In this document: piece after piece, positions 22,973-41,074 of the stretch
Position numbering within the stretch: position 1 is the first letter of the stretch
Layout: every line of letters starts with the position of its first letter
Source of the DNA: a bacterium 1XD21-70
Lineage (GTDB): Bacteria; Bacillota; Clostridia; Lachnospirales; Lachnospiraceae
Assembly (NCBI GenBank): GCA_003669055.1
Contig: RAYB01000001.1
Span: 1-64,000, forward strand
DNA length: 64,000 nucleotides
Direction: 5' to 3'
Notes under the pieces: model-generated
Databases searched by the model: none
The model's input: the letters and a program-made list of their open reading frames with translations, nothing else
What the model was told of the DNA's origin: nothing
Position numbers and translations under genes: made by a program

Positions 22973-23776
22973 TTACAGAAATTGAATGATATTATACACA
23001 CAAATCCCCATAATCACCACCATCAGGCCAATGAACAGACGGTTTACCATACCGGCATCCAGCTTCCGGTTCACGAAGCGTCCTGCCACTCCTCCCAGAA
23101 TACCACCGCCCACCATCAGCACAAAAAGTCCGATCTCAAACTCCGGCACAGTGTTCGTCACCAGGGTATTGATCAGGCTGGTGATCTGGGAAAACAGTAT
23201 GATATAGAGAGAATTTTGCGCCGCCGTCTTGGTATCCATGGAAAAAAAGTAAAACAGAACCACCAAATTGATGGGGCCGCCGCCGATTCCCAGAAAGGAA
23301 GAACAGATTCCCAGCGCCAGTCCAATCATAACACAGGCCCAGATCGCTGTCACATGACGGGTGGGAATTTTATCTTTTTTTATCATATACAATAATGTCC
23401 CAAAGGTGATCACCAGCAGACACGCCGCCTGAACCGCCCCCACCCGGTTCCGGTCGGGAGACAGTTCCAAAATATACTGGAACATCATCTTCCCAGCCAC
23501 ACCGCCTGCCGCAGCGCCCACGGCAAGGCTGGTTCCGGTTCGCATCTCCACTAAAGACTCCCTGCTCATCCTGGCCTTCACCACCGAATAGCAGGACATG
23601 GAAAGCACGGTGCAGCCGGAGAGAAAGCTGATGGAAGCCACGCTGAGCACCCCAAAAGCATCCAGAAGAGGCTTAATAAGCACTCCGCCCCCGATTCCGC
23701 AGACAGCCCCCACCACTGAGGCCCCAAAACTGACTGCCAAAAATATTACATACAAATACCAAGACATAAAATCCAT
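22973..23776 (-). CDS. TauE/SafE-family (TSUP) membrane exporter
   Basis: A 267-residue membrane protein with about eight helices in two similar halves, each carrying the glycine-rich TSUP signature: GAVCGIGGGVLIKPLL near residue 25 and SSFLGIGGGPINLVV near residue 165. Known members move sulfite, sulfoacetate, sulfonates or other organic anions. It lies downstream of the class II aldolase gene on the same strand, but a terminator-like hairpin (23850-23909) sits between them, so its membership in the sugar operon is uncertain. Confidence 0.82.
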   Translation of the reverse strand: MDFMSWYLYVIFLAVSFGASVVGAVCGIGGGVLIKPLLDAFGVLSVASISFLSGCTVLSMSCYSVVKARMSRESLVEMRTGTSLAVGAAAGGVAGKMMFQYILELSPDRNRVGAVQAACLLVITFGTLLYMIKKDKIPTRHVTAIWACVMIGLALGICSSFLGIGGGPINLVVLFYFFSMDTKTAAQNSLYIILFSQITSLINTLVTNTVPEFEIGLFVLMVGGGILGGVAGRFVNRKLDAGMVNRLFIGLMVVIMGICVYNIIQFL

Positions 23777-23849
23777 TCCTCCTAACCTGCATCAGATATC
23801 TGCTCTGCTGCCTGTATTCTAACCAACCTGCTGCTCCGGCAAAAAGACA

Positions 23850-23909
23850 GAAAAGGGAACGATAACCCCCGCCGGAAACCATATCCCAGGCTGTTACCGT
23901 CCCCCTTTT
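23850..23909 (-). terminator. Hairpin between aldolase and TauE/SafE genes
   Basis: The arms AAAAGGGAACGATAAC (23850-23865) and GTTACCGTCCCCCTTTTT (23892-23909) pair with a few mismatches. Read on the minus strand the hairpin follows the aldolase stop and ends in CTTTTCTGTCTTTTT, as expected for an intrinsic terminator. Confidence 0.6.
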
Positions 23910-23916
23910 TGCCCAC

Positions 23917-25065
23917 CTACTTTTTATACCGCTCTGCCATCTCGTCTAAGCTGACCTGCTCCACAAGGGGCGCCTTGCCAAAGGAACCAAACTGGACGAT
24001 CAGGGTTCCCACCACTTCCTTCACGCCCCGCTCCACACAGTCCACGATAGCGGCCACATCCTCATCCGGGATATTCCCGTACATCACCGTGTCCATGACA
24101 GGCGGCAGGAATGCCCGGGGGTCAAACTGGTTCTTCTTTGTCTCCAGAAGTTCATAAATGCCGCCAATGGAGGCACTGCTTTGTTTCTCCGGGTATCTGG
24201 CAAACAATTCCTTCATATTCCGGGTCACAGCCAGGCGGATATCCGTATCCACGTTGATCTTGCTGATTCCGCAGGGAATCGCCGCCTTCAACTCCTCAAT
24301 GGAAATGCCATAGGTGTCGGAAAGCTCCCCGCCCAGGCCATTGATCTCATCCACAATATATTTGGGCACTGTGGAGGAGCCGTGGGACACCAGCGCCCCG
24401 AAAATCCCCTGGTGGTTCATGCACTCCCGGATGGCAACGGCAATCTCCTTCCTCAGCTTTACGTCCTTGCCCTTGGAGGCTCCGTGCATGGTGCCATAGG
24501 AAATGGCCAGGGCATCCACCTCGGTCTTTTTGAAAAATTCCACCGCATCCAATGGATTGGTGTAGGTGGAGGAAGCGGAGAACACGTGGTCTTCCACACC
24601 GGCCAGCACACCCAGTTCTCCCTCCACGCTGACGCCCCGGGCGTGGGCATATTTCACCACCTCCCTGGTCAGTTCCATGTTCTCCTTAAACGGCAGGGAA
24701 GAACCGTCAATCATCACCGAGGTATACCCGCCCTCAATCGCCGCCACACAGGAATCAAAATCCCGGCCGTGGTCTAAATGCAGCACAATGGGAATCCTGG
24801 AATCTGCCCCGTACTTTTTCACCGCATCGGCAATATTTTTGGCCCCTGCCTTTTTATCCTCTAAGGTGGCGTTCATAAAATCCGTCCTTCCACCCATAAA
24901 CCCGTTGGCCAAATCCGCTCCCTGCAAAATCGCCGCTGAGCGGAACATCTCATGAACCTCAATGGCTGCCTTGGCCTGGGCTACCGCATTGACATTAAAC
25001 GCCCCCTGGCCAAAGCCGTACTTTACCGTTGCCTCCAGCAAAGGCCGCAATGGAATTAATGGCAT
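23917..25065 (-). CDS. Class II (zinc) fructose-bisphosphate aldolase-family enzyme
   Basis: A 382-residue metal-dependent aldolase that splits a ketose bisphosphate into DHAP and an aldehyde or aldehyde phosphate. Zinc ligands are visible in HLDHGRDFD, YGTMHGASKG and VSHGSSTVP; the catalytic Asp is in the first. The NINVDTD-type stretch (SKINVDTDIRLAVTRNM) binds the phosphate. It is longer than the E. coli-like and Bacillus types and resembles the CbbA/cyanobacterial branch. It is the last gene of the PFK-TPI-LarA-like-aldolase operon, so fructose 1,6-bisphosphate or a close analogue is the expected substrate. Confidence 0.88.
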   Translation of the reverse strand: MPLIPLRPLLEATVKYGFGQGAFNVNAVAQAKAAIEVHEMFRSAAILQGADLANGFMGGRTDFMNATLEDKKAGAKNIADAVKKYGADSRIPIVLHLDHGRDFDSCVAAIEGGYTSVMIDGSSLPFKENMELTREVVKYAHARGVSVEGELGVLAGVEDHVFSASSTYTNPLDAVEFFKKTEVDALAISYGTMHGASKGKDVKLRKEIAVAIRECMNHQGIFGALVSHGSSTVPKYIVDEINGLGGELSDTYGISIEELKAAIPCGISKINVDTDIRLAVTRNMKELFARYPEKQSSASIGGIYELLETKKNQFDPRAFLPPVMDTVMYGNIPDEDVAAIVDCVERGVKEVVGTLIVQFGSFGKAPLVEQVSLDEMAERYKK

Positions 25066-25110
25066 AATTTTCCCCTCTCTTTCTCTTATCTGCTCCTGCT
25101 TTCCCTGTTC

Positions 25111-26604
25111 CTACCCGTGCATATGAGCCGCACAGTGGCAGTCCTCTGCCCCCTTGCCGTTGTACACCTCATCCTTCATCATCAGATGGACAGCACTCAG
25201 CTTAAAGGTCTGGGGCAGCGCCAGGATATTGGGGGTTGGCCCCACAAATTTCTTCTTGGCATCCTCTAGGGCCTCCTCGATGGTGGCCCGTGTTTTCAGC
25301 CCCATGCCGCGGGCAAAGCCAGGCTCCTGGGCGCCGCACACATAGATGGCAGAGGTGTTCATCTCCGCAATATGCCCGCAGCTGATCATGGAAAAGCCAT
25401 GGAACGGATGGAATGCATTGCAGTAACGGTACTTGCGGATATACTCCTCATTGGTGGCAAAATACTCCCCATACCGGTTCATATCCGGCAAAGTATTCAT
25501 ATAATCCTTCTGGAACATCTCATACATTTCCCTGGTATACGGCCACAGTTCATCGTGGAAATACCCGTTGCAGATGGAAGAACAGATAATCACACATTTA
25601 TCACTCATAATTCTCTTGTGGCGGATCACCTGAGCCGAGATGGCCTGCATCAGCATAATGGGATTGGTTCCCATGCCCTCCCCATAGTGGAAAAACTGAG
25701 GCATGCCAAACACCATCACATCATACTTTTTCTCTGCCCAGGGCACATAAGTGCGCTTGTCCGCCGCCATCCAGGAATGAGGCTGCATCACCTTGGCATA
25801 GCCGCTGTTGATCTCGATCTGACGGGATTTGGTATCCAGTACCGCATCACAGCAGAAGAATTTCTTCCCCATGCATTCTTCCATGTGCTGCCCGATCTCG
25901 TCAAACTTGGTGCGCATCAGGGAAGTGCCGCTCACCGGGGTAAAATCCTTCCGGTGCATCACCTCCGGCACATGGTGGGAGGCAATGGAGCGCCAGTGGG
26001 TGATGCCTGTGGCACAGTGCTTATAGCCGCCGGAATATCCCCCATAAGGATTCCCCTGGGTATGGCCGATGAGAATCGCCACATCACTGTCATAGACATA
26101 CTTGTTCATCAGCACCGGGTCGCCCCTGCGGGTGGTTCCCAAATCAACCAGATGGTCGTAATCCTCACTGTCATGGTTAATGATCTGATGGGTGTACCAG
26201 AACTCGTTAAACAATTCATTCCCCAAAACCCCCCGGATCTCCTGCTCCGTGTTCTTCCGGTGCAGGCCGTTGGAACAGATCAGCAGAATGTCCTTTTTCT
26301 CCACTCCCGCCTCATACAGTTCCTGGAGAATCAGCCGGATGGAAACCTTCCGGTGAGAAGTGGGCTGCTCGCCTCCCTTTACCCTGTCCGGAAAAATAAT
26401 CGTGACCTTAGAGCCCTTGTGCGCCAGCTTGGAAAGGGGCTCCATGCCCATGGGATTGCGGATGGATTCTAAAGTCCTGGCCTCAATCTCTTCCTCCGGG
26501 ATACAAGGGGGATCCGGCACCGTCTCCCCGGGAATAAATACATCTGTGGTATCCGGCAGCTCTGCTGTCATCATTCCCTGCCCATATTCAAACGAAAGCT
26601 TCAT
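25111..26604 (-). CDS. LarA-like (nickel-pincer racemase/epimerase family) enzyme
   Basis: A 497-residue member of the LarA/DUF2088 family, whose characterised member, lactate racemase, uses a covalently bound nickel-pincer nucleotide. The family residues can be followed: FPDRVKG (D73/R74), GLHRKNTEQE (H115, matching LarA H108), GHTQGN (H181), YGGYSGGYKH with the pincer-binding lysine K195, and H203. It is about 70 residues longer than lactate racemases, so the substrate is probably larger, such as a sugar acid or sugar phosphate acid (inference). It sits between TPI and aldolase genes with a strong AAGGAGG. No larB, larC or larE for cofactor synthesis is in this window. Confidence 0.8.
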   Translation of the reverse strand: MKLSFEYGQGMMTAELPDTTDVFIPGETVPDPPCIPEEEIEARTLESIRNPMGMEPLSKLAHKGSKVTIIFPDRVKGGEQPTSHRKVSIRLILQELYEAGVEKKDILLICSNGLHRKNTEQEIRGVLGNELFNEFWYTHQIINHDSEDYDHLVDLGTTRRGDPVLMNKYVYDSDVAILIGHTQGNPYGGYSGGYKHCATGITHWRSIASHHVPEVMHRKDFTPVSGTSLMRTKFDEIGQHMEECMGKKFFCCDAVLDTKSRQIEINSGYAKVMQPHSWMAADKRTYVPWAEKKYDVMVFGMPQFFHYGEGMGTNPIMLMQAISAQVIRHKRIMSDKCVIICSSICNGYFHDELWPYTREMYEMFQKDYMNTLPDMNRYGEYFATNEEYIRKYRYCNAFHPFHGFSMISCGHIAEMNTSAIYVCGAQEPGFARGMGLKTRATIEEALEDAKKKFVGPTPNILALPQTFKLSAVHLMMKDEVYNGKGAEDCHCAAHMHG

Positions 26605-26714: not shown

Positions 26715-27551
26715 TCATTTTCCCATATAAATCCGGATAATATCCAGATACTCCTCCGGATAATACCCGATCTCTCCCGAGAACCGGGTCAGGGCAATCA
26801 GTCCGCCGTCCATCACGGGGACAGAGGCCAGCATCTCAGCGTTGTCCGTCTTAAGCCCGCCGCCATACACCACATCCATCCCGCCGGTCACTTCCTTCAC
26901 AAATGTCCCGATCTTGGTGATATACTCTTTGTCCGGCGGCACCTTGCCCGGCCCGATGGCCCACACCGGCTCATAGGCAATCGTAACCTTTTCCCTGTCC
27001 ACTCCTGCCAGACCTGTCTCAAGCTGCTCTTTAAGTACCTCCTGCCACCGCTCCTGCTCCTCTGAGGTCTCTCCGATACAGTAAAGCACAAAAAGCCCTG
27101 CCTTCACCGCTGCCTGAATCTCCTTGTTCAACAGACGGTTTACTGCAGCCGTGTCACTCACCCCAGCCTCCGCTAAGATACCTGCCTTGTCCCGGCGCTC
27201 CTCACAGTGACCGATAATGGTGGTGACGCACCCCATGGCTTTCACTGCATTGGCTGTGCGGTTGGTGGTAAAGGCTCCAAAATTGCCCCCAACTGCCGTA
27301 TCATCCCGATACACGCCCTGGCACCCCACCTTCACCGGACTGTTCTCACAGAGGGCTGACACCGCTGGCAGCAGATGAGCCTCCGGGAAATACATGGCAA
27401 ACTCCACCTCATCCCCCTCATACTTCTTTAGCTGCTCCTGGGTGTGCTCTACAATATAGCTTCCCCACTGCTCAATGGGAGCAATGGCATTTACCCCTCC
27501 GAACTCCTTTGGGATGTCAAAACGTTTCAGATTCAAAAAGATATGCTTCAT
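26715..27551 (-). CDS. Triose-phosphate isomerase (operon paralogue)
   Basis: A 278-residue TIM barrel interconverting DHAP and glyceraldehyde 3-phosphate. Catalytic residues are recognisable: N and K in FLNLKRF, His in IIGHCEERR, Glu in AYEPVWAIGPG (with the mobile loop), and the phosphate-binding YGGGLKTDN. The sequence is divergent and about 25 residues longer than standard TpiA, suggesting a dedicated second copy rather than the main glycolytic enzyme. The ATG at 27551 follows AAGGAGGAG; the 56-residue upstream extension of the frame is not coding. It is the second gene of the PFK operon. Confidence 0.88.
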   Translation of the reverse strand: MKHIFLNLKRFDIPKEFGGVNAIAPIEQWGSYIVEHTQEQLKKYEGDEVEFAMYFPEAHLLPAVSALCENSPVKVGCQGVYRDDTAVGGNFGAFTTNRTANAVKAMGCVTTIIGHCEERRDKAGILAEAGVSDTAAVNRLLNKEIQAAVKAGLFVLYCIGETSEEQERWQEVLKEQLETGLAGVDREKVTIAYEPVWAIGPGKVPPDKEYITKIGTFVKEVTGGMDVVYGGGLKTDNAEMLASVPVMDGGLIALTRFSGEIGYYPEEYLDIIRIYMGK

Positions 27552-27654: not shown

Positions 27655-28842
27655 TCACTTTCCCTCTTTCTCCCGGTACAAATCCTGGAAGTCAATATAC
27701 TCCGGAACCTCCGCTCCAATCAAGGGCTTACACCACTGAACAAACCCTTCTCTCACATCATTGCCCCGCTCATTGATATATTCCTCCGGGACCACCCGCT
27801 CATAGAGCATAACCTCCTCAATGGGAATCATGCGCACCGAGATGCGGTAACTGCCGTCCGGAGTCTCCTCACGGATAAAGCCCACCATTTTGCCGCCTTC
27901 GCCCCGCATGGCCGCCTTCAGAGCCTCCCGGCCTGCCAGCACCGCTTCGTCCCGGTCTGCCAAAGACTGGAGTTTGATGGATGCCCGGCCGCAGATGCCC
28001 GGCTTCTCGCTTCTGGCCTTGATGCCCAGCTTCTTGATCACCAACTCCGCCAGATAAGCGCTCACATCCCCGTAATAGACGGATCTTCCTGTCTGGAAAA
28101 TCGGAGGCACAATCGGCTTTCCGGACTCATCCTTAAGCCCCTCGCTGGCTACCACCACCACGCCTCCCTTTTCCTCATAGAGCCGCTTCACATCCTCTAA
28201 AAACTCCTCCTCATGGAACGGCCTCTCCGGCAGATAGATCAGATGAGGCGCATCCCCCGGCTTTTTCCTGGCCAGTGCGGAGGATGCCGTTATCCATCCT
28301 GCATTCCGCCCCATAGCCTCCACCACACACACATGAATCGGCAGGGACTTCACATCCACCCCCACTTCTGCCACAGTCTCCGCCAGATAGCGGGCAGCGC
28401 TGCCATATCCCGGAGTGTGGTCTGTGATGGCGATATCATTGTCTATGGTCTTGGGAATCCCCACCACACAGATCCCTGCATCCTTACAGGCCCGGTGAAT
28501 CTTCCCGCAGGTATCCATGGTTCCGTTGCCTCCGTTCAGCAGCACATATTGAATGTCATGCTTCTGAAAAATGGCTGTCATGGCCTCATAGTCCTCCTGC
28601 TCCAGGGCATACCGGGAAGAACCGATTGCAGTGGCCGGAGTAGTCAAAAGCAGCTTCAGCTTCTCCTGCGGATACGCTGCCAGGTCAAGAAACCGCTCCT
28701 TCAAAATCGCCTCGCTTCCACCTATGGCGCCATACACATGCTCAATCCCGCCGCACTCTGCCGCCTCCTGAATCACTCCGTACAGGGAGGCGTTGATCAC
28801 CGCTGTAGGCCCTCCTCCATGCACCACCAATACATTTGCCAC
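27655..28842 (-). CDS. 6-phosphofructokinase-family kinase (ATP or PPi donor uncertain)
   Basis: A 395-residue PFK that phosphorylates fructose 6-phosphate or an analogue at C1. Motifs: VVHGGGPTAVINAS at the N-terminus, GGNGTMDT (residues 104-111) where most PFKs have GGDGS or GGDDS, PKTIDND (130-136) containing the catalytic Asp, and VEAMGRNAGW. The donor-discriminating positions are mixed: Gly at the first (ATP-like) and Lys at the second (PPi-like). The donor therefore cannot be called, and the Asn replacing the metal-binding Asp at 106 is unusual. The start is GTG with AAAGGAG eight bases before. It is the first gene of the operon, with a LacI-type operator about 170 bases upstream. Confidence 0.85.
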   Translation of the reverse strand: MANVLVVHGGGPTAVINASLYGVIQEAAECGGIEHVYGAIGGSEAILKERFLDLAAYPQEKLKLLLTTPATAIGSSRYALEQEDYEAMTAIFQKHDIQYVLLNGGNGTMDTCGKIHRACKDAGICVVGIPKTIDNDIAITDHTPGYGSAARYLAETVAEVGVDVKSLPIHVCVVEAMGRNAGWITASSALARKKPGDAPHLIYLPERPFHEEEFLEDVKRLYEEKGGVVVVASEGLKDESGKPIVPPIFQTGRSVYYGDVSAYLAELVIKKLGIKARSEKPGICGRASIKLQSLADRDEAVLAGREALKAAMRGEGGKMVGFIREETPDGSYRISVRMIPIEEVMLYERVVPEEYINERGNDVREGFVQWCKPLIGAEVPEYIDFQDLYREKEGK

Positions 28843-28969: not shown

Positions 28970-29019
28970 ATCATACCACATTTCCAATTCAATTTGTGCT
29001 GTTTTTACTCAAACGTTTG
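28970..29019 (-). promoter_or_regulatory. PFK-operon promoter with LacI-type operator
   Basis: The minus strand carries an extended -10 (TGG TATGAT, -10 at 28975-28970). The palindrome CAAACGTTTG lies at 29010-29019, its centre 42 bases upstream of the -10 centre. The 20 bases at 29002-29021 are identical to those at 38968-38987 before the LacI-family gene. No good -35 is present, in keeping with an activated promoter. Confidence 0.75.
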
Positions 29020-29091
29020 TCTTTCCCGTATGCCGCCAAAATGCCGGCGGCAATATAATTTTCCTCTGCCGGATTCCCGCCTTTTTCCGGC

Positions 29092-32782: not shown

Positions 32783-33604
32783 TCAGTCTTCCAGCCGCGC
32801 CACATACTCCGTAAATGTCAGCGTGATATCCTCATGCCCCCGCAGAAGGCTCACCGGGAAATCCGCCGTGGCCTCCCCATACCCGGCCCGGCGCACCACT
32901 GCCCGGTGCCAGTTGCGGAAACATCCCAGCCGGATCTTCCTGGCATGGGCAATCTCATAAATCCCCACCGTCACACAATATTTCGGCATGTCCTCCAGGG
33001 CTCCGCCGAAATCCCCGATCGCGTTGGCAGCCCGGGTCTCCGGGCTGATCTCCAGCACCCGGGTCTTCTGTGCCAGGAATTCCTCCCCGGACAGCGATGC
33101 ATCCGCCTCATTAAATGCCACATGGCCGTTAATCCCGATCCCGCCGAAGGCAATGTCCACGCCCCCTAGTTCCTCGATCAGCTTTGGCACCCGCCCCACA
33201 TCCTCCGGGTCCGGGAAGACCCGCTGTGCCTTTGGCATCACCAATTCCGGACGGATCTTTGAATATACCACCCGCTCCATAAACCCACGGAAGCTTAAAG
33301 GATGGTCTATGGGGATCCATTTCTTATCATCATCCAGATATTCGTCCATGTTGATAAACCATACATCCTTTAGGCTGATGCCCCGGGTGTTGACCATATC
33401 CACAAAATAGGGATACTGCCCCACCGGCCCCACCGGGCAGATAAAGACCGTCCGCCTCCCCTTTTTGTTGTTCGCCTGGATCTCCTCTGCCATCTGCCCT
33501 GCCATCTGGCGAAACACCGCCTCATTGTCCTCCATGCAAAACAGCTTCATCTTAGGCGCTGCTAAAAGCTGCTCCTTGTTGTAACCGTAGTATTCGTGCC
33601 TCAT
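32783..33604 (-). CDS. NagB-like aminosugar-phosphate deaminase/isomerase paralogue
   Basis: A 273-residue member of the glucosamine-6-phosphate isomerase/6-phosphogluconolactonase superfamily, only distantly like the nagB product at 16411-17154. It keeps INMDEYLDDD (catalytic Asp) and FGGIGINGHVAFNEAD (ring-opening His). The N-terminal phosphate loop reads CPVGPVGQYPYF in place of ATGSSPVGAY, and the segment after the Asp is IPIDHPLSFRGFM rather than DNDQSYRYFM. These changes suggest a substrate other than GlcN 6-phosphate. The ATG at 33604 follows GGAGGG by seven bases; the frame also has ATGs at 33619 and 33610. It lies directly ahead of nagA. Confidence 0.8.
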   Translation of the reverse strand: MRHEYYGYNKEQLLAAPKMKLFCMEDNEAVFRQMAGQMAEEIQANNKKGRRTVFICPVGPVGQYPYFVDMVNTRGISLKDVWFINMDEYLDDDKKWIPIDHPLSFRGFMERVVYSKIRPELVMPKAQRVFPDPEDVGRVPKLIEELGGVDIAFGGIGINGHVAFNEADASLSGEEFLAQKTRVLEISPETRAANAIGDFGGALEDMPKYCVTVGIYEIAHARKIRLGCFRNWHRAVVRRAGYGEATADFPVSLLRGHEDITLTFTEYVARLED

Positions 33605-33635
33605 AACCATTCCCTCCATTTTTTTAAACGCCCGC

Positions 33636-34304
33636 TCACATGAACAAATGTGAGATATTTAACTCCTGGATCATCGAGACAATCTCCTTTGTCCTGCTGC
33701 ATCCGAACTTGCGCAAAAGCCCCTTGATCTGCGTCTTGACGGTAATGATCTCCACACACCGGATGCGGGCGATATCCTTTACCTTGTTCCCTTCCAAAAG
33801 CAGCCGCAGCAATTCCCTCTCGGCTGCCGTCAGCTGGGACACATTGTTAATAAAGAACAAAAGGCTTTGCTCCGACCTCTGCAGGCGGCTATATTCCCGC
33901 ATGATCGTCTCCTGGATCCGCGACTCCATCACCGGCTTCCCGCCATAGGCATTGCGGATGTGCTGCAAAATTTCCTCATCCGGGCAGCCCTTGACCACAT
34001 AATCCACTGCCCCTGTGCCCATGGCCGTGATGATCATCTGGTTTGTCTCATGGGCTGTCAAAAAGACTACCTGCTGCCCCCGCCCCTGGTCCCGTATCTT
34101 CTCCGCCGCAGCGATTCCGGCATTGACAGTCTCCATCTCAATGTCCATCAGTATGATGTCTGCTTCCCGTTCCCCGGCCTTTTCCACTGCCTCCTGGCCG
34201 CTGGCGGCCTGCCAGGCAACCTCCATATCCGGCTGGCCTGCAATCAACTCGCTTAAATCTTCGCGGATCAGGTCGAAATCCTCTACAATTGCCACTCGAA
34301 TCAT
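33636..34304 (-). CDS. NarL/FixJ-type response regulator
   Basis: A 222-residue two-component regulator. The receiver domain has the acidic pair in IVEDFD, the phosphoacceptor D54 in ILMDIEME, T in FLTAHE and K in YVVKGC. The C-terminal LuxR-type helix-turn-helix (LTAAERELLRLLLEGNKVKDIA through TVKTQIKGLLRKF) binds DNA. It is encoded 28 bases after its kinase partner and 31 bases before the NagB-like gene, so regulator and enzymes share one transcript. Confidence 0.9.
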   Translation of the reverse strand: MIRVAIVEDFDLIREDLSELIAGQPDMEVAWQAASGQEAVEKAGEREADIILMDIEMETVNAGIAAAEKIRDQGRGQQVVFLTAHETNQMIITAMGTGAVDYVVKGCPDEEILQHIRNAYGGKPVMESRIQETIMREYSRLQRSEQSLLFFINNVSQLTAAERELLRLLLEGNKVKDIARIRCVEIITVKTQIKGLLRKFGCSRTKEIVSMIQELNISHLFM

Positions 34305-34332: not shown

Positions 34333-35901
34333 TTAACCATGTTTCCCGTCATTGGCGCCCCTTCCCTCCTCTGGCCGGGCGCTGCCCGCCTCCCCCTGCC
34401 GCTCCCTCCTGGGTTCAAAGCGGGGGATTGTCACAAAAAAGCTGCTCCCTTCTCCCGGACGGCTGTCCAGCTTCATCTTGCCAAAATGGCTTTTCACAAT
34501 CTCCTGCACATAATGCAGGCCCATCCCCCAGTTGGTATTGGTGTTTTTGCTGGTGTAAAAGGGATCAAATATCTTGCGCTGCTCCTGCTTGGAGATCCCC
34601 GGCCCGTTGTCCCGGATCTCAAACCCCACATAAAGCCGCTCCGCATGGACTACCAGTTCCAGCCTCTCCCCGCTTTTCCCTGACATCAGAAACGCTTCGT
34701 GGGCATTGGTCAGAAGATTGTAGAGCGCTTCGCTCAGATGCTGTTCATCTGCCAGCAAAGACTCCCCGACACTGCCCGATACCTCCACCGCCGTGTCCTG
34801 GTATTTTTTGTGGAACAGCATCAAGGTGGTATCCACAATCTGCCCTGCCCTTACCGGGGAGAGGGAGATGCTCTTTTGCCGGATGCTTTTATAGAGTTCC
34901 TCCATCCTTCCTAGCATGCTCTCATTCACATCATCCAAGCGGTCTGCATACTCTGTCAGCCTGCCCAGGTCCGGCTCCGGCTCCGCTAACTCTTTGCGGA
35001 TCTTCTTGCAAAGCACCCGGTTGGACAAAAGCTGGTTCTTAATGCTGTGGACAAACACCGACACCCCCATGCTTGCCGTATCGAATTTCCGCCGGATACG
35101 GACATCCTCCCGGTTTTCCTTCCAGTCGATCATCATGTAGTTCTTCAGGTTCCAGAACCCCATGGCCACCGAGGCCAGCGTAAAAAGGGTGAAAAGGTAC
35201 CATCCCTGCACGCCCATCAGCGAATTGGCATACAGCCTGCCGCTAAACCGCATATATTCCGTGGAATAGATCTGATATACCTGCAAAGGATCCTGGGTGC
35301 AATATATTGCATACTGGGCTGTAATACAAAAAAGGAACACCATAATATAGCGGAACTGCTTCTTGCTATACGGTATGGTAATGTCCCGGTACTCATAAAC
35401 AATCAGCAGCACTGCCAGCAGCACATACCCAAAGATCCACCCCTGGGTCAGCTTCATCAAAAGAGCCTGCAGCCCGAACCGCCCCTTCACCAGCCTGAAA
35501 AATATCTCCGGATAATAGACCACCAAGCTCACAAACGGGATCAAAAACACCAGTACGCCGTTTTTCCGAAAACGGAACACTGACGGAACCATGCTGTAAT
35601 TCATGGCAATCATCAGGAGAAACGGCGGGAACAGATACCTCCCGATGGCAATCATATACCCTAGCTTTTGCAAAGGGAAGATCATATAGGACAGCCTTCT
35701 CTGAATCCTGGTGCCAAAAAACAGGAACGTCTTCTGTTGGGGGGAAAGGCCGCCTGTCTTTGCCAGATAGATGGTAATCCCCACAAACATGAAAATAAAA
35801 CTGAAGCACAGCCCCAGCAGCCAAACCGTCTTCTGGTCCCGTTTTAAAAAGAAGAGCGCCACAGAGGACACGGCAAGAAACAAAAGTACGATCAACAGCA
35901 T
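34333..35901 (-). CDS. Membrane sensor histidine kinase
   Basis: A 522-residue kinase with an N-terminal sensor of about six or seven membrane helices (residues 1-250) and no large extracytoplasmic domain. The phosphoacceptor is probably H285 in FVHSIKNQLL. A GHKL ATPase domain carries the N box (ALYNLLTNAHEAF), the G1 box (RDNGPGISKQEQ) and the FYTSKNTNTNWGMGLHYVQEIV lid. The ATG at 35901 follows AAAGGTGGG closely and is preferred to the one at 35925. It is the first gene of the operon that continues through the response regulator, NagB-like, nagA, Gfo/Idh and pgi genes. The signal is unknown, but the operon suggests a sugar-linked cue. Confidence 0.88.
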   Translation of the reverse strand: MLLIVLLFLAVSSVALFFLKRDQKTVWLLGLCFSFIFMFVGITIYLAKTGGLSPQQKTFLFFGTRIQRRLSYMIFPLQKLGYMIAIGRYLFPPFLLMIAMNYSMVPSVFRFRKNGVLVFLIPFVSLVVYYPEIFFRLVKGRFGLQALLMKLTQGWIFGYVLLAVLLIVYEYRDITIPYSKKQFRYIMVFLFCITAQYAIYCTQDPLQVYQIYSTEYMRFSGRLYANSLMGVQGWYLFTLFTLASVAMGFWNLKNYMMIDWKENREDVRIRRKFDTASMGVSVFVHSIKNQLLSNRVLCKKIRKELAEPEPDLGRLTEYADRLDDVNESMLGRMEELYKSIRQKSISLSPVRAGQIVDTTLMLFHKKYQDTAVEVSGSVGESLLADEQHLSEALYNLLTNAHEAFLMSGKSGERLELVVHAERLYVGFEIRDNGPGISKQEQRKIFDPFYTSKNTNTNWGMGLHYVQEIVKSHFGKMKLDSRPGEGSSFFVTIPRFEPRRERQGEAGSARPEEGRGANDGKHG

Positions 35902-35937
35902 TGTTTTCCCACCTTTGCACTTCATTCTTTTGTCTTT

Positions 35938-36131: not shown

Positions 36132-37244
36132 TTATTTATTTGCCTCGTATGCTTCCTTCATGACATCAAACAGTACATAGTTATTGACATCCACCTTCTC
36201 AGTCAGGCGGCCGCCGTCAATGAATACCTGCTGCTGGTTCTCGTAATAGGTCTTGATGGTGCCGTCCTCTAAGGACTTGCCCAGGAAATCGCTGGTAATG
36301 GTCCAGTTGCCCTCGCCCACGGTTGCCTTCATGGTGTCGGCATCCACCTCGCACTGCTTAGCCACCCAGCCGGCTACCTCTTCGATATTGCTGTTGCGGT
36401 AATCCGCAGCCTTCTGCAAAGCGCGTGAGAAGCGTACCAGCAGATCATGGTTGCTGTCAGCAAACTTCTGTGTGGTAATATAGCTGGACGGGAAGGTTAC
36501 CTGGTTCACATAATCCTGGTTGGTAGCCAGCCATACGGTCTTATCCCCCAGGGCATCCTCGATTGTCATGGTTCCCGGCGACCAGGTTGCGCAGGCATCC
36601 ACATTGCCGCTGATCATCGCCGTAACGATGCCGTTGGCATCCATCTCAACCACCTCTAAATCATCTGTGGTCATACCTTCCTGCTGCAGAGCCAGGTTCA
36701 GGATGATCTCCGCCGAGGTTCCGCTGGTGGCTGCCACCTTCTTCCCCTTTAAGTCGGCAATGCTGTTGACTCCCTTATCCTTATTGCCCATCACTGCATC
36801 CGCCAGGCTGGTACAGTCAATCTGGAAGATCACGGCTTCCCCCTCCGCGCAGAGTGCATGGGCGCCGTGGCCAATCTGGGAAATGTCAATATCGCCGGAA
36901 GCCATAGCAGCGATCTCTGCCGGGCCGCCCTGGAATTCTACCAATTCCACCGTAAGGCCCATCTCCTCAAAATAGCCCTTCTCACGCGCCGTCACTGCCA
37001 GGGATGCACTTCCCATGTTCGGCATGTAAGCTACCCGCAGCGTTGCCGGTTCAAAACTCTCCGCCTCAGCCTCAGCTTCTGTCTCGCCGCCCTCTGCCTC
37101 CGCTTTTGTCTCTGCTGCCTCAGCCGCTGTGCTAGACGGAGCCGCAGTGGACGCCGGAGCCTCAGAAGAGCCGCCCCCGCCGCAGCCTGCCAGCATGGCA
37201 GCCATCATAGTTGACACCAGTACAAGACTCATTTTCTTTCTCAT
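36132..37244 (-). CDS. NMT1/TauA-type ABC substrate-binding lipoprotein
   Basis: A 370-residue lipoprotein with signal MSLVLVSTMMAAMLAGC (lipobox cysteine), a low-complexity Ala/Glu/Thr linker of about 55 residues, then a periplasmic-binding fold of the nitrate/taurine/alkanesulfonate class (LRVAYMPNMGSASLAVTAREKGYFEEMGLTVE, IAAMASGDIDISQIGHGA, LKGKKVAATSGTSAE). This class binds small anions, sulfonates, pyrimidines and others; no ligand can be named. The ATG at 37244 follows AAAGGAGGAA. It is the last gene of a permease-ATPase-binding protein operon that is divergent from the LacI-family gene. Confidence 0.85.
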   Translation of the reverse strand: MRKKMSLVLVSTMMAAMLAGCGGGGSSEAPASTAAPSSTAAEAAETKAEAEGGETEAEAEAESFEPATLRVAYMPNMGSASLAVTAREKGYFEEMGLTVELVEFQGGPAEIAAMASGDIDISQIGHGAHALCAEGEAVIFQIDCTSLADAVMGNKDKGVNSIADLKGKKVAATSGTSAEIILNLALQQEGMTTDDLEVVEMDANGIVTAMISGNVDACATWSPGTMTIEDALGDKTVWLATNQDYVNQVTFPSSYITTQKFADSNHDLLVRFSRALQKAADYRNSNIEEVAGWVAKQCEVDADTMKATVGEGNWTITSDFLGKSLEDGTIKTYYENQQQVFIDGGRLTEKVDVNNYVLFDVMKEAYEANK

Positions 37245-37318
37245 AAAAAATTCCTCCTTTTCCTCCCTCTTTGGGTAATCATTGGCAATCATCCGGTTTC
37301 CCGGGCTGTTGCTGTCAT

Positions 37319-38107
37319 TTACTTGCGTACTTCCAGATACTCCTGATATACCTCGCCCCAGATATAACTCTTCAAATCCAGGAAAGGCAGTTCCATCTTC
37401 ATCTCCTGCGTCCTCGGATAGGGCAGGCCGATATCCACAATCTTCTTGATGCGCCCCGGCCTGGCACTCATGATGATGACCTTCGTGGCCAGGATAACCG
37501 CTTCCTCCACATCATGGGTGATGAAAAAGCAGGTCTTCTTCTGCTCCTGCCAGGTCTTAATAAGTTCTGACTGCAGCTGTGTCCTGGTCTGGGCATCCAG
37601 CGCCCCGAACGGCTCATCCATCAAAAGCACCTGCGGATTGACCGCATAGGCCCTGGCGATCGCCACCCGCTGCTTCATGCCGCCTGACAGTTCCTTGGGA
37701 TAGGAATCTGCAAACTGCTCCAGATCCACCATTTTCAGGTATTTCATGGCGGTTTCCCTGGATTCGGCTTCCCCCACTCCCTGCAGCTTTAAGCCAAACT
37801 GTACATTCTTCAGCACTGTCAGCCACGGGAACAATGCATACTGCTGGAATACCACGCCCCGCTCCGGCCCCGGCCCTTGAACCTCTTTCCCGTCCACATA
37901 GACAGCGCCCGAGGTCGGCTCCAAAAGCCCTGCAATCACGTTCAGCAGGGTGGACTTTCCGCAGCCGGAAGGGCCGACCACGCAGATGAACTCATTTTCC
38001 ATGATATCCAGGCTGACACCGTTTAACGCAACCATATCGCCGTTACGGCCGCTATACACCTTCTCGACCTTGTCGATCTTTACCTTTACTGCACCGTTTC
38101 CTGCCAT
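37319..38107 (-). CDS. ABC importer ATPase (SsuB/TauB-like)
   Basis: A 262-residue nucleotide-binding subunit with Walker A VGPSGCGKST, Q-loop FQQYALFPW, signature LSGGMKQRVAIARA, Walker B VLLMDEPFGALD and H-loop FITHDVEEA. Such subunits power importers of nitrate, taurine and alkanesulfonates. It starts inside the 3' end of the permease gene (22-base overlap), so translation is coupled. Confidence 0.92.
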   Translation of the reverse strand: MAGNGAVKVKIDKVEKVYSGRNGDMVALNGVSLDIMENEFICVVGPSGCGKSTLLNVIAGLLEPTSGAVYVDGKEVQGPGPERGVVFQQYALFPWLTVLKNVQFGLKLQGVGEAESRETAMKYLKMVDLEQFADSYPKELSGGMKQRVAIARAYAVNPQVLLMDEPFGALDAQTRTQLQSELIKTWQEQKKTCFFITHDVEEAVILATKVIIMSARPGRIKKIVDIGLPYPRTQEMKMELPFLDLKSYIWGEVYQEYLEVRK

Positions 38108-38874
38108 CCCGTCAGCTTCCTTTCTAAGAATTTAACCAACTGCTCCATCAGCATCCCGATAATCCCGATAATCAGAATTCCCAAAAGCACCGTCGCCATA
38201 TCGTAATATCCCTGTGCCTTCTGGATCATCATGCCCAGGCCCTTGGAGGCACCGGTCAGTTCTGCCGCCACCAGGGTGGTCAGGGAAGCCGAAAGCCCGA
38301 GGCGGGCGCCGACTAAGATGAACGGGGTGGAAGCCGGGATGACTACCTTAAAGAAAATATCCTTGTCAGATGCCCCCAGGACCCTCGCTGCCTTGATCAA
38401 TGTGGCGTCCACATTGCACACGCCCTGGTAGATGGTAACCACCAGCACCAAAAACGAGGCGATAAAAATCACGATCACCTTTGCCTTCTCGCCCACGCCT
38501 GCACCGGTAATAACCAGCGGGATATAGGCCAAAGGCGGGATGTTCCGGACAAACTGCACCCACGGCGCCACCACATTCCTAAACGGCGCGTACCATCCCA
38601 TCAGAAATGCAATCGGGATTGAAATCACAAAGCCCAGGGAAAAACCTGCAATCACCCGGAAAAGGCTGATGTAAGTGTGCTGCCATAAGGTTCCGTCAGA
38701 CACTTTCGCCACCAGCTTTGCAAATACCTCCCACGGCTCTGCAAATACCACGCCGCCCGCTTCCGTGGATGCGATGAAGATCCACAGCAGAACCGCTGCC
38801 GCCAGTGACAGAAGCATCCATGCGCCGTCCGGGATCTGCGTCCAGAAAGACTTATCTTTTTTTCTTGTCTCCAT
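38086..38874 (-). CDS. ABC importer permease (SsuC/TauC-like)
   Basis: A 262-residue permease with six predicted membrane helices and the ATPase-coupling loop (ILGASDKDIFFKVVIPASTPFILVGARLGLS) characteristic of the BPD_transp_1 sulfonate/nitrate class. GGAGG precedes the ATG. It is the first gene of the importer operon. The 200 bases separating it from the divergent LacI-family gene contain the operator at 38976-38985 and a 19-base near-palindrome (38941-38959, GTATGAAA/TTTCATAC). Confidence 0.9.
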   Translation of the reverse strand: METRKKDKSFWTQIPDGAWMLLSLAAAVLLWIFIASTEAGGVVFAEPWEVFAKLVAKVSDGTLWQHTYISLFRVIAGFSLGFVISIPIAFLMGWYAPFRNVVAPWVQFVRNIPPLAYIPLVITGAGVGEKAKVIVIFIASFLVLVVTIYQGVCNVDATLIKAARVLGASDKDIFFKVVIPASTPFILVGARLGLSASLTTLVAAELTGASKGLGMMIQKAQGYYDMATVLLGILIIGIIGMLMEQLVKFLERKLTGWQETVQ

Positions 38875-38940
38875 GTGTACCCCTCCTTATTCCCATAATC
38901 CTGATAGTTCATAGTTTACTTGTTTTTGCCGAAAAAAACA

Positions 38941-38959
38941 GTATGAAATATTTTCATAC
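38941..38959. promoter_or_regulatory. Second inverted repeat in the importer/LacI intergenic region
   Basis: GTATGAAA-TAT-TTTCATAC is a near-perfect inverted repeat on the importer side of the CAAACGTTTG operator. It overlaps a possible -10 (TATGAA) for the importer operon, so it may be a separate operator, for example for the response regulator encoded nearby. Confidence 0.45.
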
Positions 38960-38975
38960 CGCGCCTCTTTTTACT

Positions 38976-39026
38976 CAAACGTTTGTCGATATCGCTATAG
39001 TATTTTGGGGGAAAATCCGGTACAAT
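38976..39026 (+). promoter_or_regulatory. LacI-gene promoter with its own operator
   Basis: The perfect palindrome CAAACGTTTG (38976-38985) is centred 43 bases upstream of TACAAT (39021-39026), the same spacing as at the PFK and kinase promoters. The adjacent bases (38968-38987) are identical to those at 29002-29021. An alternative -10 (TATAGT, 38996-39001) would put the operator in a repressing position. Confidence 0.7.
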
Positions 39027-39074
39027 AGAAACAGACCGCCATACAAGCAGACATTGCAGGAAGGAAAACTGGAT

Positions 39075-40112
39075 ATGACTTTAAAAGAAATTGCCGCCGA
39101 GGCAGGAGTTTCGGTCTCCACCGTCTCCCGTGTCATCAACAAGAGCAGCAAATCTCCCGCCAGCCAGGAAGTACAAGACCGCATCTGGGAAATCGTGCGC
39201 CGGACCGGCTATACGCCCAACAGCAGCGCCCGCCAGCTGAAAATGGGCAGCCACACCGCCCCCGCGAACACCTCACATTCCATCGCCTGCCTTTTCGCCC
39301 GCATCCATGAGGCGGAAGCGGACACGTTCTTCGCCTCCCTGGCCCGCAGCATCGAAAAGGAAGCGTTTAAACACGGCTATATTGTGAAATATACCTTCAC
39401 CGCCTTTGATGTCAATGACCCCAACATTTTCCGGCTGATCTCGGACAACCACGTGGATGGGGTTGCCGTGCTAGGGCGCTGTGACAAGCAGCTATTGAAA
39501 TTCTTAAAGCAGTATTTCCGGTATGTGGCCTACACCGGCCTCAACGGCCTGGATGCCAAGTACGACCAGATTGTCTGCGACGGATATCAGGCAGCAGTGG
39601 CTGCCATGGAACACCTTTTGAAGCTAAAACATACCAGGATCGCCTATGTGGGGGAAACCAGCAACGAAGACCGCTACCGCGGATACTGTACGGCACTGGC
39701 CGGGGCCGGGCTCTCCTTCTGCCGGGAACTAATAGCCAATGAGCCCCTGTCCTCAGAAGGCGGATACCGCGGCACGGACATGATACTAAAAAAGGGAGTG
39801 CCGGTCAGCGCCTTTTTCTGCCCTAACGACGTGACGGCAATCGGAGCCATGCGCGCAATCAAGGAACATGGGCTGGCAATCCCGGAAGACATCTCCCTAA
39901 TCAGCATCGATGATATTGACACCGCACAATATCTGACGCCGATGCTGACTACCATCCATATCCCGGTAGAGGAGATGGGGCAGATGACTGCCAAGATCCT
40001 GATCGACCGGATCGAAGGAGGGCACACGCTGCCGGTAAAGGTCAGCCTCCCCTTTTATATTGCAGGGAGGGAAAGCTGCGGGGAGTGCCCGGTTTTAAAG
40101 AAAAAGAGATAG
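39075..40112 (+). CDS. LacI-family transcriptional regulator
   Basis: A 345-residue regulator. The first 55 residues are the LacI helix-turn-helix (TLKEIAAEAGVSVSTVSRVIN) and hinge helix (YTPNSSARQLKMG). The rest is a periplasmic-binding-protein-like effector domain (VDGVAVLGRCDKQ, IVCDGYQAAVAAMEHLL, FFCPNDVTAIGAMRAIKEHG, ISIDDIDTAQYLTP). It is divergent from the TauABC-like importer and 75 bases upstream of the aldose-epimerase gene. The CAAACGTTTG sites before its own gene, before the PFK operon and (imperfect) before the kinase operon make it the likely controller of all of them. The effector, presumably a sugar or sugar phosphate, is unknown. Confidence 0.9.
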   Translation: MTLKEIAAEAGVSVSTVSRVINKSSKSPASQEVQDRIWEIVRRTGYTPNSSARQLKMGSHTAPANTSHSIACLFARIHEAEADTFFASLARSIEKEAFKHGYIVKYTFTAFDVNDPNIFRLISDNHVDGVAVLGRCDKQLLKFLKQYFRYVAYTGLNGLDAKYDQIVCDGYQAAVAAMEHLLKLKHTRIAYVGETSNEDRYRGYCTALAGAGLSFCRELIANEPLSSEGGYRGTDMILKKGVPVSAFFCPNDVTAIGAMRAIKEHGLAIPEDISLISIDDIDTAQYLTPMLTTIHIPVEEMGQMTAKILIDRIEGGHTLPVKVSLPFYIAGRESCGECPVLKKKR

Positions 40113-40186
40113 CTTGGATGCAATGTTATAAAATATAAAGAAAGGACGTAACAGCCAGTACCTGCCTGTTGCAAAAGGACACTGCC

Positions 40187-41074
40187 ATGATCATTACAAT
40201 CAAAGACAAAGCCGCGCACACTACCGCCGCCATCGACTCTTTCGGCGCACAGCTCATCTCCCTTAAGGATGCAGATGGAAAAGAATATATCTGGCAGCGC
40301 GACCCCGAGATTTGGCCCCGCTGCTCCCCGCTCTTATTCCCGGCTGTCGGCAACTGCCGGGACGGTCGCACCCGCTTTGACGGCGAATGGTATGAGATGG
40401 AAAAGCACGGCTTCTGCAAGGAATCTGATTTTCTCGCAGACGGCCAAAAGGAGGATGCCGCCACATTCCGGCTCGCTGCCAACGCGCAGACCCGTGCCTC
40501 CTATCCCTATGGGTTTATCCTCTCCCTCACCTACCGGCTGGAAAACGGGGTGCTGCTGATGGATTACTGTGTGGAAAACACGGACAGCCGAAAGATCTGC
40601 TACTGCATCGGCTCCCACCCGGGCTTTATCTGCCCGCTCGCAGAAGGGGAAGACTTTAGCGATTACCAGCTGGAATTTGAGAAAGAGGAAGATACCTGCG
40701 CCATGCCGTATGATTTGCAGGCCCTGCAGTTTGATGCCGGGAAAAAGGGGCTTGCACTGGAACGCACCAGGGTTCTCCCGCTTTCCTATGAACTGTTCCG
40801 GGAGGATGCCGTTTACTTTGATAAACTCCGCTCCCGCAAGGTTGCCCTGCTCCATAAAAAGACCCGCCGGGGCGTGGAGGTCTCCCACCCGGGCTTTGAG
40901 ACGGTTGCCTTCTGGACACCATATGGAAAAAATGCCTCCCTCCTCTGCATTGAGCCGTGGAACGGCTGTGCCATCCGCTCTGACGAGGATGATGACTTCA
41001 TCCACCGGCACCATGTCCAGGTCCTTGATCCCGGTGAAAAGAAAAACTACCACATGGAGATCCGTATCCTATAA
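40187..41074 (+). CDS. Aldose 1-epimerase family protein (LacX/YphB-like)
   Basis: A 295-residue galactose-mutarotase-fold protein. Features are LISLKDADGKEYIWQRDPEIWPRCSPLLFPAVG, HGFCKESDF, the IGSHPGFICPL stretch with the conserved His, and the C-terminal CIEPWNGCA, typical of the LacX-type subgroup. Members interconvert anomers of free sugars or sugar phosphates. The ATG at 40187 follows AAAGGA by seven bases; an upstream TTG at 40169 lacks support. It directly follows the LacI-family gene on the same strand and is probably cotranscribed, linking it to the sugar system. Confidence 0.85.
   Translation: MIITIKDKAAHTTAAIDSFGAQLISLKDADGKEYIWQRDPEIWPRCSPLLFPAVGNCRDGRTRFDGEWYEMEKHGFCKESDFLADGQKEDAATFRLAANAQTRASYPYGFILSLTYRLENGVLLMDYCVENTDSRKICYCIGSHPGFICPLAEGEDFSDYQLEFEKEEDTCAMPYDLQALQFDAGKKGLALERTRVLPLSYELFREDAVYFDKLRSRKVALLHKKTRRGVEVSHPGFETVAFWTPYGKNASLLCIEPWNGCAIRSDEDDDFIHRHHVQVLDPGEKKNYHMEIRIL

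Follow-up and report, generated by a model that had tools for sequence, protein, structure and literature searches.

A parallel glycolysis on a 6-sulfo sugar is already known in bacteria: the sulfo-EMP2 pathway (SqvD, SqiK, SqiA) of Bacillus urumqiensis and Megamonas rupellensis yields dihydroxyacetone phosphate (DHAP) and a sulfo-triose (PMC9594981, PMC12890257). The use of N-acetylglucosamine (GlcNAc) 6-sulfate has its own gene cluster in Bifidobacterium breve, the AtsR2 cluster (PMC9599254, PMC11186840). In addition, two LarA structures from 2025, 9q2u (LarA_Sp, S. plurextorum) and 9q3j (LarA_Bw, B. wexlerae), are octamers with Asn in place of one catalytic His and Lys in place of the carboxylate-binding Arg. 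These proteins did not racemise lactate and held an unidentified, apparently covalent 316.5-Da ligand; both source genomes have glycolytic neighbours, and carbohydrates were speculated to be the substrates, with no function assigned (PMC12611868). Here, we describe a locus at positions 22973-41074 of a 64,000-nucleotide stretch (the window) of the Lachnospiraceae bacterium 1XD21-70, contig RAYB01000001.1, which combines NagA-, NagB-, PGI-, PFK-, TPI-, aldolase- and LarA-like genes with an importer, an exporter and a LacI-family repressor. From sequence comparisons, we give roughly even odds (about 0.5) to the proposal that this LacI-controlled regulon breaks down N-acetylhexosamines sulfo-substituted at C6; the simplest such substrate would be GlcNAc-6-O-sulfate derived from mucin or keratan-type glycans.

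The window set resembles sulfo-EMP2 in having a PF00365 kinase and a PF01116 class II aldolase, assigned by Pfam and with predicted specificities. However, the 20 ORFs of 22973-45204 scanned by Pfam include neither SqvD (PF02952), in whose place stands a NagA/NagB-like or PGI-like entry, nor a sulfolactaldehyde reductase or dehydrogenase family (NAD_binding_2/11, Aldedh). The set has a TPI-like and LarA-like pair instead, and its substrate is probably an amino sugar. Because two defining features of sulfo-EMP2 are absent, we regard the system as a variant of sulfoglycolysis-like metabolism and not as a sulfo-EMP2 member. With the Nag pathway it shares a deacetylase followed by a deaminase/isomerase, both with their catalytic motifs kept, and canonical NagA itself weakly uses GlcNAc-6-sulfate (PMC6016474). 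Unlike the Nag pathway, it has replaced 6-phosphate sites, a sulfonate-class ABC importer, and a dedicated kinase and aldolase. The Aga/Kba pathway for N-acetylgalactosamine (GalNAc; AgaA, AgaS, GatY/KbaY) is resembled by some related loci, in which AgaS-like (L193, L177, L134, L032) and GatY-like genes (L193, L177, L032) were recognised by eye; L and G numbers are our labels for loci and genomes. In contrast to Aga/Kba, these variants are coupled to a TPI-LarA pair, with TauE in addition in L193 and L177. In the B. breve AtsR2 cluster, unlike the window system, a sulfatase presumably removes the sulfate, and we know of no parallel glycolysis or LarA in that cluster. The LarA-like enzyme shares subfamily, conserved active-site residues and glycolytic neighbours with LarA_Sp and LarA_Bw (PMC12611868); beyond that report, which assigns no substrate, we propose a substrate class and a near-constant TPI-like partner.

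We found no description of such a pathway in the open-access literature searched. A sequence-only reading of the window had likewise known of no described pathway with this exact set, which holds except that the LarA subfamily and its glycolytic neighbourhood were already in print without a function (PMC12611868). The literature searched also made no mention of a shared operator, replaced phosphate sites, a link to sulfur or this substrate class.

The substrate proposal begins with the residues that bind phosphate in the canonical enzymes. Each window protein was aligned with its orthologues (NagA 47 of 49, PGI 17 of 18, TPI 74 of 76, NagB-like 43 of 43, PFK 58 of 65 and FBA 49 of 63) at identity thresholds of 44, 39, 40, 45, 45 and 55%, respectively; with the window protein added to each set, the distinct sequences number 47, 17, 74, 42, 59 and 48. 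The NagA rows left out were L188 (34%) and L195 (44%); rows were dropped by length for TPI and by identity or length for PFK and FBA. Canonical motifs were taken from alignments to solved structures (PGI, NagA) and to paralogues; the three canonical PGIs compared were those of G057, G019 and G004, and the longer-type canonical PGI of the window's own genome was set aside. In NagA, the phosphate Arg, present in 7/7 other NagA-family paralogues, is His in 48/48 system proteins, and 37 of the 48 have an Arg beside the next phosphate-site His (DGRH). The PGI loop SKSGTTTEP, found in all three canonical enzymes, reads AK(N/D)F.T(L/I)EP in 18/18. Likewise, the GG phosphate tail of TPI (7/9 paralogues, with GR in 2/9) has become (A/G)LT(R/K/N)F in 75/75, with Arg or Lys there in 74. 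All 44 NagB-like proteins have the TGS(S/T)P loop shortened by two residues (PVGP) and a Lys changed to His, and 43 carry FR.WHR.

Catalytic motifs, by contrast, are kept. NagA retains HLEGP (47/48, one gap) and TDS (48/48); PGI retains (G/A)ESEGK, LH and YK (18/18); TPI retains its catalytic Lys (73/75, two gaps) together with GH.EER and YEP.W.IG (75/75); and the NagB-like proteins retain NMDEY and GH.AFNE (44/44). PKT.DND and GR.AGW are present in all 59 PFKs, and the aldolase keeps its C1-phosphate motif IN(V/I)D(T/S)D.R (50/50) and HLDHG (49/50, one gap). The kinase reads GGNG in 59/59 system proteins and GGND in 12/12 paralogues; by rules we take as given, GGNG favours ATP over pyrophosphate, though the best NCBIfam family of the kinase is the pyrophosphate type. 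The NagA phosphate Arg is R227 in E. coli (R225 in M. marinum). It is an important residue, since no activity on the phosphate substrate was detected for M. marinum NagA R225A, nor for H249A (PMC6016474). A canonical mycobacterial NagA also deacetylates GlcNAc-6-sulfate, with a Km ∼7-fold higher, and is reported there not to use plain GlcNAc (PMC6016474), so NagA-type deacetylation of a 6-sulfo sugar has precedent. The basic residues near the lost sites of NagA, TPI and the NagB-like protein suggest that an anion is bound there and speak against a neutral C6; with the rebuilt sites, they make it most likely that the substrates carry a non-phosphate anion at the terminal carbon. The sequence-only reading had proposed an N-acetyl-aminohexose phosphate route with a duplicated ordinary glycolysis, which the replaced 6-phosphate residues of NagA, NagB-like, PGI and TPI do not support; its further suggestion of a modified aminohexose gains support.

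The genes also appear to be regulated together. An identical 20-nucleotide sequence, TTTTTACTCAAACGTTTGTC, lies in the permease/LacI gap and in the gap upstream of PFK, as expected from the earlier claim of two operons under one regulator. Its centre is the palindrome CAAACGTTTG, which has the CG centre usual for LacI-family operators. Allowing at most one mismatch, a 12-mer around the palindrome has two matches in the window, both at these sites, against a shuffle mean of 0.33; this count alone is weak evidence because 6/100 shuffles also reach 2. A LarA alignment scan of an 84,980-species genome collection returned at least 576 relatives, and counts here and below use the best 80 of these. 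Two loci occur under two labels each (L031/L133 and L035/L173). In 45 of the 80 LarA loci, the 10-bp palindrome occurs a total of 54 times, versus 1.37 expected from base composition, and seven palindromic or near-palindromic control patterns have 0-5 copies each. Forty-six copies fall within the interval from 500 bp before to 60 bp after a gene start (LacI 21, PFK 19, permease 2, GH3 2, TPI 1, binding protein 1); the other eight have no such gene nearby. After loci were merged at ≥90% LarA identity, the operator was retained in 12/30 groups. In G004, the histidine kinase (HK), response regulator (RR), NagA and TauE genes are on a different contig from the PFK operon, and the palindrome stands 100 bp upstream of NagA-TauE, a link between TauE and the pathway that does not depend on their position. 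Judged by these putative operators, the gene set acts as a single regulon, presumably under LacI.

Genome-wide, the palindrome lacks specificity: several genomes have no more copies of it than of its reversed control (for instance, 2 vs 10 in G016, 5 vs 6 in G015), and the enrichment is local to LarA loci. The window's own genome has four copies, two of them in the window; the other two, near UvrA-like and TctA-like genes (by eye), look unrelated, and a wider regulon in this genome was rejected on that ground. Elsewhere, in two genomes, CAAACGTTTG is found in the gap between a LacI gene of another kind and a DapA-like gene with an Nramp-like transporter gene behind it (by eye), at L219:2789-6431 and L225:2953-6661, which is a separate LacI regulon using the same core palindrome. 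Six copies occur within 12 kb at L230:3256-14970 (G019), a region that looks mobile-element-like by eye.

Conservation in relatives supports the view of a dedicated, co-regulated and uncharacterised sugar-catabolic system. NagB-like orthologues (≥53% identity) are present in 15/61 genomes searched, own genome included, and 14 of the 15 neighbourhoods hold further system members; the exception is L038, where the orthologue has a 42% LacI gene as its sole neighbour from the set. This gene association is far beyond chance. The sequence-only reading had named conservation of the gene set as a check on its proposal, and the association was kept, but gene order differs among the neighbourhoods, several arrangements being found. 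In an even draw of the phylum, 5/299 genomes (own genome included) encode LarA at E 1e-60 or better. The closest LarA relatives among the matches listed (L117-L119, 97%; L130, 99% over a partial match) come from uncultured Lachnospiraceae and other gut isolates, and the best 80 of at least 576 include Hungatella, Enterocloster, [Clostridium] species, Lacrimispora, Mediterraneibacter, Treponema and other Spirochaetales, Vagococcus and Paraliobacillus. Since at least 576 genome stretches encode a LarA relative, the LarA, if not the system as a whole, is widespread. A close-match search of 72,556 plasmid records gave a single 179-base ATPase match (76%).

The make-up of the 80 loci is modular. 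With the window proteins and a few seeds from related loci as tblastn queries, TPI was found in 72, PFK in 56, LacI in 54 (weak matches included), FBA in 53, NagA in 44, NagB-like in 39, the SsuA-like binding protein in 34, PGI in 17, TauE in 12, sulfatase in 8 and Gfo/Idh-like in 3; HK, RR and mutarotase were found in 16, 17 and 16, respectively. LarA and the TPI-like protein are thus a near-constant unit, and the upstream enzymes vary. The Gfo/Idh dehydrogenase, the HK-RR pair and the mutarotase are accessory. For Gfo/Idh, this departs from the earlier suggestion of a core redox step: among the neighbourhoods compared, clear orthologues (≥90%) occur only in G017 and G022 besides the window, and the matches in 3/80 LarA loci are at 23-27%. 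Upstream variants comprise NagA/NagB-like enzymes (GlcNAc type), PGI/PFK, and the AgaS/GatY-like genes of the four loci named above, three of which count among the 80, with L032 in addition; the AgaS-like genes suggest a putative GalNAc version of the system. L178 has a phosphotransferase system (PTS) and a GatY-like aldolase (by eye), with no PFK found there, and a PfkB-like kinase (by eye) occurs in L154 and four other loci. The simplest reading of a near-constant LarA-TPI unit with variable upstream enzymes is that different routes lead to a single three-carbon intermediate on which the TPI-like and LarA-like proteins act. No extra family dominates the neighbours (320 candidate ORFs in 220 clusters; 107 of 121 listed representatives were scanned by Pfam, with 25 of 157 matching families listed). 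At L040:4457-11645, TPI-LarA lies beside an arylsulfotransferase-family (ASST) gene and an SMP-30 lactonase gene (both by Pfam), along with DapA-like, glutaredoxin-like, GcvH-like and TctABC-type genes (by eye); this locus is possibly another entry to the same triose.

Several genes link the system to sulfur. The importer is assigned by sequence to the SsuABC/TauABC class, with an SsuA/TauA-type binding protein, one permease and one ATPase. Among the solved structures related to this binding protein are the taurine-binding 6ssy and the sulfonate-binding 2x26, but nitrate-binding and other proteins as well; by profile, the SsuA-like type is found in 39/80 LarA loci. The sequence-only reading, whose list of compounds to try did include sulfonated sugars, had identified neither this importer class nor the first gene, a predicted TauE exporter. 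TauE lies near LarA in 13/80 loci (the union of 12 by tblastn and 12 by profile, two of the profile rows, L041 and L142, being partial ORFs), versus 0.87 expected from a background of 106 PF01925 matches in 61 genomes and 181.6 Mb, with genome sizes rounded. It also stands beside an unrelated sugar-type importer in L041 and L042 (PF01925 confirmed for L042), and within ∼10 kb of a system gene in 9 of the 15 NagB-like genomes (G000, G004, G007, G013, G015, G017, G022, G023 and G057). A sulfatase occurs in 10/80 LarA loci by profile, versus 1.7 expected (PF00884 confirmed for L031 and L032), and a sulfatase-maturase-like gene (by eye) in L154, L168 and L175. After merging at ≥90% LarA identity, 6/30 groups retain TauE and 5/30 a sulfatase, so the signal does not come from a single clade.

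The LarA-like protein carries N185, H115, K195, H211, H306 and Y307, all invariant in 11/11 aligned rows, and by these residues it belongs to the single-histidine (Asn) subfamily. The nearest NCBIfam families are LarAH14/15/16, far under cut-off (195 of 740 bits). LarC is needed for the nickel cofactor of LarA; larC is present in the window's own genome and lies near LarA in 9/80 loci. An ordinary LarA epimerisation, as proposed from the sequence alone, is doubtful because the subfamily is described as having lost one of the two catalytic histidines (PMC12611868).

We propose the following route. The 6-sulfo N-acetylhexosamine would be taken up by the SsuABC-like importer, deacetylated by the NagA-like enzyme, and deaminated and isomerised by the NagB-like enzyme to 6-sulfo-fructose; the PGI-like enzyme would act on the deaminated aldose. 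The PFK-A-type kinase would then phosphorylate C1, and class II aldol cleavage would give DHAP and a 3-sulfo-triose (glyceraldehyde-3-sulfate if the group is an ester, sulfolactaldehyde if it is a sulfonate). DHAP would enter ordinary glycolysis via the canonical TPI of the genome, whereas the sulfo-triose would be converted by the TPI-like/LarA-like pair, with a sulfur-containing product exported by TauE. We infer the sulfo nature of the group, its ester form, the order of the steps and the whole of the last conversion. For that conversion, given a sulfo substrate, our favoured but tentative and rather unlikely version is that the TPI-like protein forms an enediolate and eliminates sulfate by β-elimination to give methylglyoxal, which a 1,2-hydride shift on the LarA cofactor may turn into lactate. 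TPI enediolates tend to eliminate their leaving group; this, the near-constant TPI partner, the presence of only one His and the absence of conserved redox genes are the reasons for reading LarA in this way.

A sulfate ester is preferred over a sulfonate for several reasons. Sulfatases recur in LarA loci, and an ester of sulfate mimics a phosphate ester more closely than a sulfonate does. There also seem to be entry modules of both GlcNAc and GalNAc type, and in animals 6-sulfo hexosamines commonly occur as esters. Canonical NagA, reported to accept GlcNAc-6-sulfate and not GlcNAc, points the same way (PMC6016474). Bifidobacterium bifidum frees GlcNAc-6-sulfate from mucin and does not assimilate it (PMC9599254, PMC11186840); one review also credits a B. 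breve NagA with the ability to use GlcNAc-6-sulfate residues (PMC11186840). In its most complete and decidedly speculative form, the proposal is a sulfate-ester glycolysis of 6-O-sulfated hexosamines and hexoses without a sulfatase. Sulfate would stand in for phosphate during deacetylation, deamination, C1-phosphorylation and aldol cleavage; the TPI-like protein would be a sulfate lyase (glyceraldehyde-3-sulfate to methylglyoxal), and LarA a nickel-pincer glyoxalase forming lactate, for which a single His would suffice, the hydride moving only to the neighbouring carbon.

Host glycans that carry sulfate are an important source of nutrients in the gut, and access to them is usually taken to depend on removal of the sulfate. 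If the proposal is true, a route that keeps the sulfo group past aldol cleavage would open sulfo sugars released by other organisms to bacteria that have no sulfatase for them. It also offers a testable substrate class for a solved nickel enzyme subfamily that has no function.

A number of observations weigh against a C6 sulfate. Loss of the NagA Arg is not needed for sulfate, since the canonical enzyme can use GlcNAc-6-sulfate too. The range of NMT1-type proteins and TSUP exporters extends to other anions, and no TauE was found in the fetched flanks of 67/80 LarA loci. The window's own locus has no sulfatase and its genome only three PF00884 matches, so the sulfated-glycan setting rests on relatives. 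Moreover, the sulfatase, TauE and AgaS seeds were picked after being seen in these loci, the background genomes differ from those of the 80 loci, and the TauE and sulfatase enrichments shrink when LarA groups are merged; Poisson figures for them overstate the signal. The phosphate-site roles of the NagB, PGI and TPI residues are our assumption. Some contexts have no sulfate-ester explanation: TPI-LarA adjoins nucleoside hydrolases and nucleoside-type transporters at L159:5890-16163 and L187:7779-17427, with an RpiB-like gene in L159 (by eye); it occurs with transketolase halves in L176 (mostly by eye) and with the sugar-acid-like TctABC-type and SMP-30 genes of the distant L040; and L043, also distant, has a NAD_binding_2/11 gene (3-hydroxyisobutyrate-dehydrogenase type, the sulfolactaldehyde reductase family) that would suit a sulfonate, as would the Aldedh-family dehydrogenase gene of the distant L041. 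Finally, the methylglyoxal/lactate reading leaves the 316.5-Da ligand unexplained.

The best-surviving alternative, unlikely but serious, is a C6 sulfonate: N-acetyl-sulfoquinovosamine or sulfoquinovose would pass through a sulfo-EMP2 variant to sulfolactaldehyde for TPI/LarA, and TauE would export sulfite or a C3 sulfonate. SqiK (PF00365) and SqiA (PF01116) belong to the kinase and aldolase families found here (PMC9594981). SsuABC and TauE are sulfonate/sulfite-type transporters, and sulfoquinovose would be a fitting substrate for a PGI-like isomerase. A fucose-isomerase-type gene is present in L178 (by eye), 2/107 neighbours match PF02952, the SqvD family, and the transaldolase-family gene of L037, the aldehyde dehydrogenase of L041 and the NAD_binding_2/11 gene of L043 are from families that occur in sulfoglycolysis too. 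However, sulfatases and sulfatase-maturase-like genes recur, and the NagA, NagB-like and AgaS-like genes point to hexosamines, which in animals commonly carry the 6-sulfo group as an ester, as noted above. In addition, no sulfoquinovosidase was recognised by eye in the neighbourhoods read (the Pfam list covered 25/157 families and was not a full search), and the word sulfoquinovosamine is absent from the open-access literature searched. Sulfoquinovosamine had been our first substrate guess and was demoted when the sulfatases, the sulfatase-maturase-like genes and the AgaS-type variants appeared.

Another anion at C6, such as the carboxylate of an aminouronic acid, seems improbable. Aldol cleavage would then give tartronate semialdehyde, the TPI-like protein would be a hydroxypyruvate isomerase and LarA would act on a hydroxyacid. 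LarA relatives do act on 2-hydroxy acids, the carboxylate-binding Arg is changed conservatively to Lys in the solved members (PMC12611868), and a 3-hydroxyisobutyrate-dehydrogenase-type gene (L043) or SMP-30 and TctABC-type genes (L040, TctABC by eye) beside LarA would suit sugar acids. TauE, SsuABC and the sulfatases are left unexplained by a carboxylate.

More improbable still is an unsubstituted C6-OH, with GlcNAc converted via GlcN, fructose and fructose-1-phosphate to DHAP and glyceraldehyde, and the changed sites reflecting the lack of a 6-phosphate. This would account for the changed 6-phosphate residues and for the kept C1-phosphate motif of the aldolase. The basic residues near the lost sites (NagA Arg 37/48, TPI Arg/Lys 74/75, FR.WHR 43/44) speak against it, and on their account a neutral C6 was judged unlikely; the importer, exporter and sulfatase association also go unexplained, and a PTS and canonical-type nagB, presumably for GlcNAc, already exist at 16.4-18.8 kb. 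An ordinary duplication of GlcNAc catabolism and upper glycolysis on standard phosphorylated intermediates, suggested by family-level matches to NagA, NagB, PGI, PFK, TPI and FBA, is very improbable and was rejected on the residue counts: all four 6-phosphate sites compared are replaced in every orthologue counted, and they persist in paralogues from the same or related genomes.

The window lies on contig C43 of a 4.31-Mb genome. All genes named in the sequence-only reading were found at the coordinates given, and Pfam and NCBIfam searches confirmed the families that it named: 14 minus-strand genes form one run, and two plus-strand genes (LacI and mutarotase-like) diverge from it (Table 1). 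The NagB-like protein has no Pfam match at E 1e-3. Separate canonical PGI, TPI and PFK genes exist in the same genome besides the system copies, and the nagB and PTS noted earlier were located, with the canonical-type nagB at 16411-17154.

Table 1. Features of the candidate regulon in the window, with the basis of each assignment
Feature	Position	Strand	Basis
TauE/SafE-family anion exporter (predicted), end of operon 2	22973-23776	-	PF01925 96.1 bits, cut-off 32.6
Class II ketose-1-phosphate aldolase, FBA-like	23917-25065	-	PF01116 239 bits; C1-phosphate and metal motifs kept
LarA-like nickel-pincer-nucleotide enzyme, single-His (Asn) subfamily	25111-26604	-	891 bits to 9q2u, 861 to 9q3j
TPI-like isomerase/lyase, proposed for a non-phosphate triose	26715-27551	-	PF00121 122 bits; ORF from 27719, start inferred
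PFK-A family kinase, predicted 1-kinase of C6-modified fructose	27655-28842	-	PF00365 182 bits, NF010675 412 bits
LacI-type operator copy, upstream of operon 2, TTTTTACTCAAACGTTTGTC	29002-29021	.	Palindrome CAAACGTTTG at centre
PGI-like aldose-ketose isomerase, rebuilt phosphate loop	29240-30496	-	NF010697 406 bits, cut-off 443; ORF from 30577, start inferred
Gfo/Idh/MocA dehydrogenase, accessory	30520-31497	-	PF01408; distribution in relatives
NagA-like N-acetylhexosamine deacetylase, phosphate Arg to His	31503-32693	-	TIGR00221 293 bits
Divergent NagB-like deaminase/isomerase, new FR.WHR motif	32783-33619	-	NCBIfam nagB 100 bits, cut-off 236.9; solved NagB 2bkv E 5.7e-18
NarL/LuxR-type response regulator	33636-34304	-	PF00072, PF00196
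Sensor histidine kinase	34333-35925	-	PF02518
SsuA/TauA-like (NMT1) substrate-binding protein	36132-37292	-	TIGR01728 157.8 bits, just below cut-off 163.5
TauB/SsuB-like ATPase	37319-38107	-	NF008421 266 bits, cut-off 357
TauC/SsuC-like permease	38086-38874	-	NF007545 156 bits, cut-off 342
LacI-type operator copy, divergent permease/LacI gap	38968-38987	.	20 nucleotides identical to 29002-29021
LacI-family repressor, presumed regulator of both operons	39075-40112	+	PF00356, PF13377; ORF from 38805, start inferred
Aldose 1-epimerase (mutarotase)-like protein	40169-41074	+	PF01263 84 bits

Adjoining the system on the plus strand, positions 19233-22954 encode an iron-siderophore-type ABC importer (Peripla_BP_2, FecCD, ATPase), followed by an FmdE-domain protein with a DksA-type zinc finger. 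On its other side, at 44033-45204, two half-length chromate-transporter genes stand in tandem on the minus strand, upstream of nrdD.

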